From Candidatus Methanoperedens sp. (GTDB lineage: Archaea; Halobacteriota; Methanosarcinia; Methanosarcinales; Methanoperedenaceae): a DNA stretch of 44,361 bases. The notes beneath the pieces are model-generated. The model searched no databases. It saw only the letters and a program-made list of their open reading frames with translations, and was not told the origin of the DNA. How positions within the stretch are numbered: position 1 is the first letter of the stretch; each line of letters begins with the position of its first letter. The translations under genes and the position numbers were made by a program. The stretch spans positions 1 to 44,361 of the forward strand of contig JAPZAV010000045.1 in assembly GCA_027460465.1 (NCBI GenBank), given 5' to 3'. Below are positions 6,876-12,747 of this stretch, one piece after another.

Positions 6876-7721
6876 ATGCATTTTTATTTCGTCGCATTTG
6901 AGCTTTTCACGTTCATCCTGCTTATTATTTGTTTTCTTCATGCCCGTACTCAAGGAAAGCCCAGGCTGGTCGAGCTTATCACCCTTGTGGTCAATGGTCT
7001 GTTGCTTGAGAAATTGACTATTCTATTCTTCAGGGAATATACCTACGGTGATGGTTTTCTAATTATGGTCCAGGATGTACCTCTGAGCATTGCCTTCGGG
7101 TGGGCAGCGATAATCTACAGCGCAATGGAGACCACAAATATGCTCGGTATTCCTCTGGCAGCGAGACCCCTGTATGATACTCTCCTTGCACTGAACATAG
7201 ATCTTTCAATGGATGCCATTGCCATTCGCGCAGGGTTCTGGAAGTGGTTGAATGGCGGTGAATGGTTCGGAGTTCCTTATGGTAATTTTCTGGGGTGGAT
7301 CTGTGTGGTGTTTTTCTTCTCGTTTTCTGTAAGATTGTTGAGAAAACATCCTCCTGGAAACGAAGCCATCAGGGTTATCACGATCCTGGTGAGTTCATTA
7401 TTGCCTCTGATATTAATGCTGAAGATCTGGGCACTATGGGTGCCGGATATTCTAAAAGGTGCGATCATAGCCGGCATACTTCTTATTTTTCTGACAGTAG
7501 TTCTATTGAAATCAAAGGGATTTGCAAACAGTCACAATTATCGTATCATGGCAGTTCCTTTTGTTTTCCATATCTTTTTCCTCTTTTTGCTCATCCATGA
7601 AAGATTCTATGCAGAGGTACCTCTGCTGCTCCCCCTTTCCGCAGGGATGTTAATACTTGGATTCGCCGGGCATTTTCCGCAATCTGTAAGAAGATCGTTA
7701 TCCAAAGGTTTCAAATCATAA
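6876..7721 (+). CDS. CruF-like (carotenoid biosynthesis family) membrane protein
   Basis: This 281-residue polytopic protein has about eight membrane segments. The block DAIAIRAGFWKWLNGGEWFGVPYGNFLGW resembles the conserved region of the CruF/DUF422 family (D..A.R.G.W.W..GG.Y.GVP..NF.GW), which includes carotenoid 1,2-hydratases and bisanhydrobacterioruberin hydratase. No other carotenoid genes lie in the window, so the substrate is uncertain; another isoprenoid is possible. It ends 11 bp inside the 3' end of the convergent SpoIIM-like gene. Confidence 0.6.
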   Translation: MHFYFVAFELFTFILLIICFLHARTQGKPRLVELITLVVNGLLLEKLTILFFREYTYGDGFLIMVQDVPLSIAFGWAAIIYSAMETTNMLGIPLAARPLYDTLLALNIDLSMDAIAIRAGFWKWLNGGEWFGVPYGNFLGWICVVFFFSFSVRLLRKHPPGNEAIRVITILVSSLLPLILMLKIWALWVPDILKGAIIAGILLIFLTVVLLKSKGFANSHNYRIMAVPFVFHIFFLFLLIHERFYAEVPLLLPLSAGMLILGFAGHFPQSVRRSLSKGFKS

Positions 7722-11235: not shown

Positions 11236-11250
11236 AAAAATATATAAACA
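11236..11250 (+). promoter_or_regulatory. TATA box ahead of the hairpin array
   Basis: AAAAATATATAAACA at 11236-11250 is a near-consensus archaeal TATA box. A start 25 nt downstream would fall near 11268-11272, which is the beginning of the hairpin array and has no coding gene after it for over 500 nt. Confidence 0.55.
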
Positions 11251-11263
11251 GCAGATAAAAGCG

Positions 11264-11526
11264 CCCAGAGTCACATGCCTCCCGAGTTGCGCCTCCGGAG
11301 GGCGCACACACGTATGGCTCGCGCCATACGTGGATACCAAGTCGAGAAGCGTAGCTTTCGGAGTAGGCGCGTCCACGTATGCCCCGCAAGGGCATACGTG
11401 TTGTTTGGGAGTCGAGGGAACCCAGAGTCACGCCTCTGGAGGGCGTGTACACGTATTGCTTCGCAATACGTGGGCGCGGAGTCGAGAACCCGCAGGGTTT
11501 CGGTCTGAGAACCCGCAGGGTTTCGG
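11264..11526 (+). ncRNA. Candidate structured RNA: array of related hairpins
   Basis: Three hairpins share the stem end CACGTAT and differ in the inner pairs with compensatory changes. They lie at 11309-11332 (inner GGC/GCC, loop TCGC), 11374-11400 (GCCC/GGGC, loop CGCAA) and 11450-11472 (TGC/GCA, loop TTC). Each of the outer two is preceded by a smaller GC-rich stem (11288-11306 and 11429-11447). The unit begins with CCCAGAGTCAC (11264-11274 and 11421-11431) and ends with AGTCGAG (near 11340, 11410 and 11480). A tandem 20-bp repeat, each copy itself a small hairpin, closes the region (11484-11503 and 11507-11526). A TATA box lies just upstream. The strand is inferred from that TATA box. The array could instead be a DNA-level repeat element. 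Confidence 0.5.
11484..11526 (+). repeat. Tandem 20-bp repeat
   Basis: Two identical copies of GAGAACCCGCAGGGTTTCGG occupy 11484-11503 and 11507-11526, separated by 3 nt. Each can fold through AACCC and GGGTT. They form the 3' end of the hairpin array. Confidence 0.8.
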
Positions 11527-11796
11527 CATTTGATGAATGCAGATTATGGCGGTGCATCTGTGTTTATCCGCGTTCATCTGCGGTTAATTGTTTTGCGAAG
11601 CTATGCGGGATATTATAATTCCATTCGGATTCACATAATATATGTTAATCCGTGTTCTTATCTCAAAAATTATCTCTTTACCGCCAACGAATGAAACACT
11701 TTCACCCCGCTTACCATAGTTTTGTATATATGAAAGTTCTTAAATTTGTATATAAAATCAATAATTAATAAGATATATTTATGAGGATTTAAACGA
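11527..11796. other. Intergenic region with GCAGAT/ATCTGC inverted motif
   Basis: GCAGAT (11539-11544) and ATCTGC (11576-11581) flank CATCTGTGTTTATCCGCGTT, a phrase that resembles short dispersed intergenic repeats known from many genomes; its role is unknown. From 11600 to 11780 the DNA is AT-rich with no gene. The ATAAGATATATTTATG stretch at about 11768-11783 supplies a promoter-like sequence for the radical SAM gene. Confidence 0.4.
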
Positions 11797-12747
11797 ATGC
11801 AACAAATGATGCAGATAAAGAAAAATGTTTACAAGATGCTGGATGGTTCCAAAAAGAATCTTGTTCAGAAAGTGGGAGATGGTTCGATAATTTGCAGATT
11901 TGAGAAATCCCCTCTACCTGAGGAAAAGACAGATATTATCTGTCCTCATTTCTTAGAGCTGAAATGGGCAAATGGATGTTCATATGACTGTGCATGGTGT
12001 TTTTTACAGGGGACCTTCAGATTTACAGGAAAACAACCAAGACAAAAGGATCGAATTAAAGTTAAGGAGCATATTAGCACTTTTTTAAATAATGGCTCTT
12101 TACCTGAAGTATTGAACTCCGGTGAGTTATGTGATTCTCTGCTATCTGAAAATTCTGATGATCCTTTCTCAAAATTCATCATTCCGCTGTTTGAATCACA
12201 AAAAAAGCACAAAGTTCTTTTTTTGACAAAATCAACCAATGTTGAAAATTTATTGAGAATTGATCAGCATGAAAATGTCATAATGAGTTTCAGTTTGAAT
12301 GCACCTGCGGTTTCAAATAAGTGGGAAAAAGCGCCAGAAGTCGAAGACCGGATTGAAGCTGCAAGAAAAGTAAGTGATGCAGGATATGAGACAAGAATCC
12401 GAATAGATCCGATGGTTCCAGTATTCGAATGGGAAGAACATTATACCGGACTTATAGAGATATTCGAACAATTTCTTCCTGAGAGAATTACCCTTGGTTC
12501 TTTGAGAGGACTTCAGAGTACGATAAATTATTCTAAAGATAAAACCTGGGTAAAATACCTGTCAGAAAAATCAAATTGGGGTAAAAAGATTGATTCTGAA
12601 ATCAGGTTTGAAATGTACTCCACTCTGATTGATTATTTGAAGAATAATTATGGCTATACAAACGTTGCATTATGCAAGGAGACAGTTGAAATATGGGAAA
12701 AGATGGAGTTGGATTATATGAAAATTAAGTGTAATTGTTTAATGTAA
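11797..12747 (+). CDS. Spore-photoproduct-lyase-like radical SAM protein
   Basis: This 316-residue protein has the radical SAM cluster motif CSYDCAWC (CX3CX2C) at about residues 66-73 in ELKWANGCSYDCAWCF. It has a TIM-barrel-like continuation with IRIDPMVPV, which resembles the SPL family. The C-terminus ends CNC. Spore photoproduct lyase repairs thymine dimers, but archaeal SPL-like proteins are uncharacterised. GAGGA lies 9 nt before the ATG. The broken tcmP-like gene follows 22 nt downstream; TcmP proteins are usually encoded next to a radical SAM protein of the three-Cys-motif type, so this protein may be its former partner. Confidence 0.75.
   Translation: MQQMMQIKKNVYKMLDGSKKNLVQKVGDGSIICRFEKSPLPEEKTDIICPHFLELKWANGCSYDCAWCFLQGTFRFTGKQPRQKDRIKVKEHISTFLNNGSLPEVLNSGELCDSLLSENSDDPFSKFIIPLFESQKKHKVLFLTKSTNVENLLRIDQHENVIMSFSLNAPAVSNKWEKAPEVEDRIEAARKVSDAGYETRIRIDPMVPVFEWEEHYTGLIEIFEQFLPERITLGSLRGLQSTINYSKDKTWVKYLSEKSNWGKKIDSEIRFEMYSTLIDYLKNNYGYTNVALCKETVEIWEKMELDYMKIKCNCLM

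Follow-up and report, generated by a model that had tools for sequence, protein, structure and literature searches.

A fold-conserved palindromic repeat, probably a non-autonomous mobile element, forms a compound array in Candidatus Methanoperedens

Rickettsia palindromic elements (RPEs) are about 150 bp long with a conserved encoded peptide and are inserted in frame into metabolic genes (PMC10969869); they end in CGTC and have no dedicated transposase (PMC3733652). REPs and BIMEs are small foldable repeats with alternative complementary residues in their stems, intergenic and sometimes intragenic in location, and clustered in mosaics (PMC3733652). An element that we find in Candidatus Methanoperedens behaves most like the RPEs, with which it shares short dispersed palindromes lying both between genes and in frame within unrelated metabolic genes, and the lack of a known transposase (PMC10969869, PMC3733652). 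In-frame insertions that are absent from orthologues are seen in the genes for thymidylate synthase, chorismate synthase, a U32 peptidase, a DNA methylase and MvhD/FlpD. The Methanoperedens element differs in being archaeal, in its length of ~80 bp and in its two arm pseudoknots; just 40 of 162 arm-hairpin sequences contain CGTC, which is constant at no arm or hairpin edge, and in place of a peptide conserved in a single frame, different frames are used. With REPs and BIMEs it has in common small foldable units with varying stems, intergenic and intragenic locations and clustering in mosaics, but it has three hairpins with loop-to-junction pairing where a REP has one, GTAG is present in none of the 162 distinct arm-hairpin sequences, and no Y1 transposase is linked to it. 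As it departs from RPEs in the tag and the peptide, and from REPs in GTAG and the linked RAYT, we regard the element as working by analogy like these repeats but as a member of neither class. It also resembles MITEs, including archaeal ones, in being a short, non-coding, non-autonomous multicopy sequence with an inverted-repeat architecture and both filled and empty sites. However, its arms mirror each other in fold but differ in sequence, so that it would lack ordinary terminal inverted repeats, and there is no constant target-site duplication (3 bp, none, or ~36–220 bp, by site).

The window examined is a stretch of 44,361 nucleotides (contig JAPZAV010000045.1), in which the region at 11236–11526 is a compound array of three joined units of this element. 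Comparisons among genomes make it likely, in our view, that the array arose by compound insertion of a palindromic mobile element that is non-autonomous and depends on its structure. In each unit the loop of a 6-bp hairpin pairs with the bases immediately 5' of a CACGTAT hairpin to give an H-type pseudoknot, and a complete element of ~80 bp has a central hairpin (usually CACGTATNNN/NNNATACGTG) between two arms. Read towards the hairpin, an arm is S1 (6 nt), 2 nt, S2 (3 nt), 1 nt, S1' (6 nt), 4 nt, S2' (3 nt) and 3 nt, with S2 lying inside the S1 loop and pairing with S2', which adjoins the central hairpin.

All features of the array are given on the forward strand. The units begin with CCCAGAGTCAC at 11264 and 11421 and have AGTCGAG at 11340, 11410 and 11480. 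The left arm of unit 1 (11281–11308) is a pseudoknot recognised by its geometry and by an R1 match at 11281–11336 (71.3 bits), in which S1 CCCGAG/CTCCGG pairs 11281–11286 with 11293–11298 with one mismatch, and S2 GCG/CGC pairs 11289–11291 with 11303–11305. It is followed by the central hairpin CACGTATGGC TCGC GCCATACGTG (11309–11332) and a right, mirror arm, GATACCAAGTCGAGAAGCGTAGCTTTCGG (11333–11361), which on inspection of the sequence is degenerate, with a hairpin loop GTA that can pair with TAC beside the central hairpin. Unit 2 has a central hairpin CACGTATGCCC CGCAA GGGCATACGTG at 11374–11400 and a left arm truncated into unit 1. In unit 3 the left arm (11422–11449; R1 match 11422–11476, 72.6 bits) has S1 CCAGAG/CTCTGG pairing 11422–11427 with 11434–11439 and S2 ACG/CGT pairing 11430–11432 with 11444–11446; the central hairpin CACGTATTGC TTC GCAATACGTG (11450–11472) and the right arm GGCGCGGAGTCGAGAACCCGCAGGGTTTCGG (11473–11503) complete an 83-bp core at 11421–11503. 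The array closes with a tandem 20-bp repeat of GAGAACCCGCAGGGTTTCGG (11484–11526, with copies at 11484–11503 and 11507–11526), which is a duplicated right-arm hairpin. The three CACGTAT...ATACGTG hairpins, with inner pairs GGC/GCC, GCCC/GGGC and TGC/GCA, the repeat units and the closing tandem repeat had all been described correctly in a first-pass annotation made from the sequence. The folding energy of 11262–11530 is -129.6 kcal/mol, compared with -101.2 ± 4.9 in shuffles (z = -5.8).

The same annotation had reported two smaller stems, TGCGCC/GGCGCA and CACGCC/GGCGTG, and both are present, but it overlooked that they overlap a third stem, CCAGAG/CTCTGG, with which they interlock as a pseudoknot in an alignment of 25 units. 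Variants of this third stem include CCCGAG/CTCGGG, AAACTG/CAGTTT, CGACTG/CAGTCG, CAAGGG/CCCTTG and others. The compensatory variation that it had proposed is borne out by these 25 units, in which 97.1% of pair cells hold standard pairs versus 84.2% in shuffles, 58 pair cells are changed on both sides versus 19, and all five covariation measures lie above all or nearly all shuffles. All three bases of S2 (types GCG/CGC, ACG/CGT, ACC/GGT, ACT/AGT and ACA/TGT) pair in 71 of 82 arms, compared with 34.8 ± 3.6 after S2' is redistributed among the arms; with related arms collapsed, the count is 18 of 29 versus 8.4 ± 2.0. Wobble or mismatched pairs occur as C-A on S1 in seven contexts and G-U on S2 in four, a pattern that favours neither RNA nor DNA as the folded form, and neither strand. 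A possible fourth S2 pair (arm positions 7 and 25) was dropped because the counts, on inspection, suggested that its letters vary independently.

A scan for the geometry alone, blind to sequence, gave 196 matches in 1.8 Mb of Methanoperedens-centred DNA, which was picked by homology so that match counts are not genome-wide frequencies; there were none in shuffled DNA, nor any in 400 kb of archaeal DNA from four genomes of other families. Other spacer lengths gave 0–14 matches versus 157, with the exception of a one-base register shift into the central stem at the same sites. The matches include quite different central hairpins (GGGGTATGC, CAGGTATG and CACATATG), and 400 kb of M. nitroreducens unselected for elements yielded two, one of them convincing. 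To the right of the central hairpin the arm recurs as a mirror image in fold; among 176 central hairpins, an arm of this geometry is present on one side or both in 146 and on both sides in 25, the left and right sequences being different. Because lengths and pairing are invariant while the sequences vary, it appears that the mobilising machinery would recognise the fold rather than the sequence. H-type pseudoknot RNAs of Rfam have the same topology, but no meaningful Rfam match was obtained with the array region (E up to 5), in keeping with the earlier view that no known RNA family has this layout, and eight divergent loci gave only a tRNA and a sub-threshold snoRNA match (E up to 0.5).

The multicopy nature of the region could not be seen from its sequence alone. 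In the genome from which the window comes (2.87 Mb, 176 contigs) a 361-base query finds ~20 further places at E below 1e-8, so the region belongs to a repeat family and is not a lone gene. A covariance-model search, which the first-pass annotation had proposed, does recover a structured family across the genus, but one with 51 matches in this genome and no single gene; an arm-plus-hairpin model gave 3–68 matches per genome in the 21 genus genomes searched sensitively. The family is present in all 31 Methanoperedens genomes and in two of three other Methanoperedenaceae genomes, and there are scattered weak or single covariance-model matches in two other families. When named genomes were scanned with a pattern, nearly all of the records returned were from Methanoperedenaceae, M. 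nitroreducens contigs (NZ_JMIY) among them, and in nearly all cases seen the element is specific to this family. The genomes are mostly metagenome bins, with open reading frames called by simple rules. No match was found among PLSDB plasmids with blastn or among IMG/VR viral contigs with an exact pattern, and text searches of the literature found no Methanoperedens repeat family and no CGCAGAT repeat. Two records labelled Bacteroidales and Planctomycetota (L138 and L148) carry a typical element, and may reflect mis-binning, their nzgw sample names being common to Methanoperedens bins, or transfer.

The first-pass annotation took the region for a structured RNA gene behind its own promoter. A TATA-like ATATATAA does lie at 11240–11247, but it belongs to the insertion site, outside the repeat. 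Of seven copies in the same genome that share their left boundary, six lack such a box and the one in the window has it; the ATATATAA box is common only to the window and the L009 copy, which also matches ~30 bp further upstream. It is also correct that no protein gene follows for more than 270 nt, the next plausible one beginning at 11797, 271 nt past the array. The array lies in the 646 nt that separate a COX1-like gene from a spore-photoproduct-lyase-like (SPL-like) radical-SAM gene (11797–12747, with a spore photoproduct lyase domain), whose upstream neighbour varies among genomes. Were the units a functional RNA family, transcribed as non-coding RNAs or acting in cis as mRNA terminators, stabilisers or translational controls, the strong conservation of structure including the pseudoknot would be accounted for, as would the retention in several species of copies ahead of the SPL-like gene, and a G001 hairpin, CATAAAGCGA...TCGCTTTATG, that runs into a start codon. 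We think this quite unlikely, since not only is the TATA box not common to the copies, but these occur in both orientations and in every gene arrangement (++ 22, -- 16, -+ 8, +- 7), many sit within genes that encode proteins, fixed sites (thymidylate synthase, and the site ahead of the SPL-like gene in G001) show decay of the pairing, and one site can hold different cores in different species. With members that are scattered, nested and lodged inside protein genes whose counterparts in sister species are empty, the family does not bear out an RNA gene with its own promoter. The annotation's fallback, a repeat element acting in DNA, comes nearer; overall, its interpretation is partly supported. 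Strong covariation and a nearby TATA box in raw sequence need not signal a new RNA gene.

Filled and empty sites within genes were located by searches with fused proteins, and only conserved genes were used, as the count of 70 copies inside open reading frames is inflated by spurious frames in GC-rich palindromes. Thymidylate synthase has 66 nt (+22 aa) inserted in frame at GKD|VDQL in G001, G002, G010, G016 and G023, where GTT appears to be a duplicated target; the insert is missing in L025/L268 and in most other species. The two sides of its hairpin are mismatched (CACACAT or CAGGCAT facing ATGCGTG) and the frame is intact, which argues that pairing is not needed once a copy is in place; inserted copies that have lost their pairing were what the first-pass annotation had said would count against its RNA reading. 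The chorismate synthase insert is confined to M. nitroreducens (G015), where the flank MNDPI[IT]LQESTY is duplicated, and G025 keeps a scar-like ESTYG. The U32 peptidase gene carries in-frame insertions in four species at one position, with the same CGCAGAT-type flanks and four different cores, and copies are also present in the C-termini of MvhD/FlpD. In-gene copies are read in different frames, as NPRIAEQCVYTT... in thymidylate synthase and STYASRHTCVRPPE... in chorismate synthase. A DNA methylase insert in G029 splits LDQ|MVGSGTT, and the corresponding LDQ|MxGSG is empty in five other sequences read. As this interrupts a cofactor-binding motif with the frame open, one could propose that in-gene copies are parasites at the RNA level, removed from the mRNA like introns or bypassed by the ribosome. 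This seems to us very improbable, as the thymidylate synthase copies lose their pairing and keep their frame, as expected if they are translated; the methylase copy in G026 is out of frame, and that gene may be a pseudogene.

Evidence for turnover comes from sites shared among species. One CGCAGAT site that precedes the SPL-like gene holds different cores in G006/G016 and G026, a decayed core in G001 and none in G010. The 83-bp core of unit 3 is 100% identical in G023 and G026, at unrelated places, whereas orthologous genes are 75–80% identical. CGCAGAT-type repeats flank 55 of 160 elements on both sides, compared with 0.9% of random places, and from this enrichment they look like landing sites; uninterrupted CGCAGAT arrays exist as well. 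In the window the left flank CAGCAGATAAAAGC (11249–11262) and the right flank TTTGATGAATGCAGAT (11530–11545) are of this type, which adjoins many copies. Direct CGCAGAT/CGCAGATGAA repeats at 11249–11262 and 11530–11613 could mark such a site, and a second repeat type, GGATTCACATAATATATGTTAATCCGTGTTC (11627–11659), resembles the CACGGATT repeats of several other loci. Target duplications are 3 bp in thymidylate synthase, absent in the methylase, ~36–38 bp in chorismate synthase and at L043, and ~220 bp at L012, leaving room for replication-linked template switching. At L012 (1360–1800), the ~220-bp tandem duplication contains the 3' part of a tRNA and an element.

These long duplications, which flank the copies at L012, at L043 and in chorismate synthase, together with tandem expansion of the arms in M. 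nitroreducens, are also what might be seen if the palindromes bound a protein that organises the chromosome and were amplified by recombination or template switching with no dedicated mobiliser. Covariation with free variation of sequence is unexpected for recognition of a sequence in double-stranded DNA, however, and neither the empty and filled gene sites with 0–3 bp duplications nor the near-identical cores at unrelated sites of different species fit well, so we regard this explanation as unlikely. In the M. nitroreducens arrays at L150 ~6950–7250 (G015:C3 ~105000) left and right arms are separately duplicated in tandem around one central hairpin, forming a very long branched palindrome. 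Repeated self-insertion at the center was considered for these nests and set aside, as the copy numbers of left and right arms differ and tandem duplication fits better.

The reading that we favor, a mobile element, thus draws on geometry and covariation, dispersal, filled and empty sites, in-frame insertions, turnover and decay of cores, and near-identical cores. The element would spread by means of a trans-acting enzyme or host process whose substrate is a folded single strand, which could be single-stranded DNA of an extruded cruciform or the lagging strand, or an RNA copy. Since the family as a whole retains its pairing and old sites lose it, the fold would be selected in the copies that spread, during mobilisation. 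Once landed, a copy would play a largely passive part, either tolerated in an intergenic position or adding a translated loop to a protein, and the window copy would sit passively between the COX1-like and SPL-like genes. Copies persist in several species upstream of SPL-like and argininosuccinate-lyase-like genes, with which some cis function would also fit. No recurrent transposase is found among the neighbours within 2.5 kb of the 160 elements, and no autonomous relative is seen in the element-bearing loci examined; with no mobilising gene and inconsistent target duplications, the term mobile rests on comparative rather than mechanistic evidence.

An enzyme that suggests itself is a Y1 (HUH, RAYT-like) transposase cutting folded single-stranded DNA, which would make these REP-type elements. 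We think this unlikely. The small palindromes, variation at the level of structure and head-to-tail arrays do resemble REPs and BIMEs, and most of the genomes have Y1 transposases, but these are equally common in families that lack the element, no Y1 gene recurs near the elements, and none is detected in G016 despite its 44 copies. The GTAG tag is missing, and described REPs have no arm pseudoknot (PMC3733652). Uncorrelated with copy number and not adjacent to elements, Y1 transposases were therefore rejected as the mobiliser. A bolder version of the mobile-element reading, which we put forward tentatively as a possibility, is a mobile class defined by fold, in which a putative enzyme recognises a strand (single-stranded DNA or RNA) with three hairpins and two pseudoknots, cores are exchanged at CGCAGAT sites, and in-frame loops are added to essential archaeal enzymes.

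If the mobile-element reading is right, an environmentally important methane oxidiser has an archaeal counterpart of the in-frame palindromic repeats of Rickettsia, with a fold-level signature strict enough for detection by geometry alone. The filled and empty thymidylate synthase, chorismate synthase and U32 peptidase sites offer natural experiments on selfish repeats that make protein loops, and the defined pseudoknot-hairpin is a concrete substrate for finding the mobilising enzyme.

Two further placements of the element were observed. In G001, near-identical copies at L163, L165 and L166 lie exactly at start codons inside operons, with the last hairpin ending in the ATG of the next gene, where it could hide the start codon. 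Two different tnpB genes (L153 6542–7741 and L221 3815–5167) carry the same type of element at the same place near their 3' ends (GE|LTPVE); guide RNAs of tnpB-type elements usually overlap the 3' part of the gene, where those copies sit.
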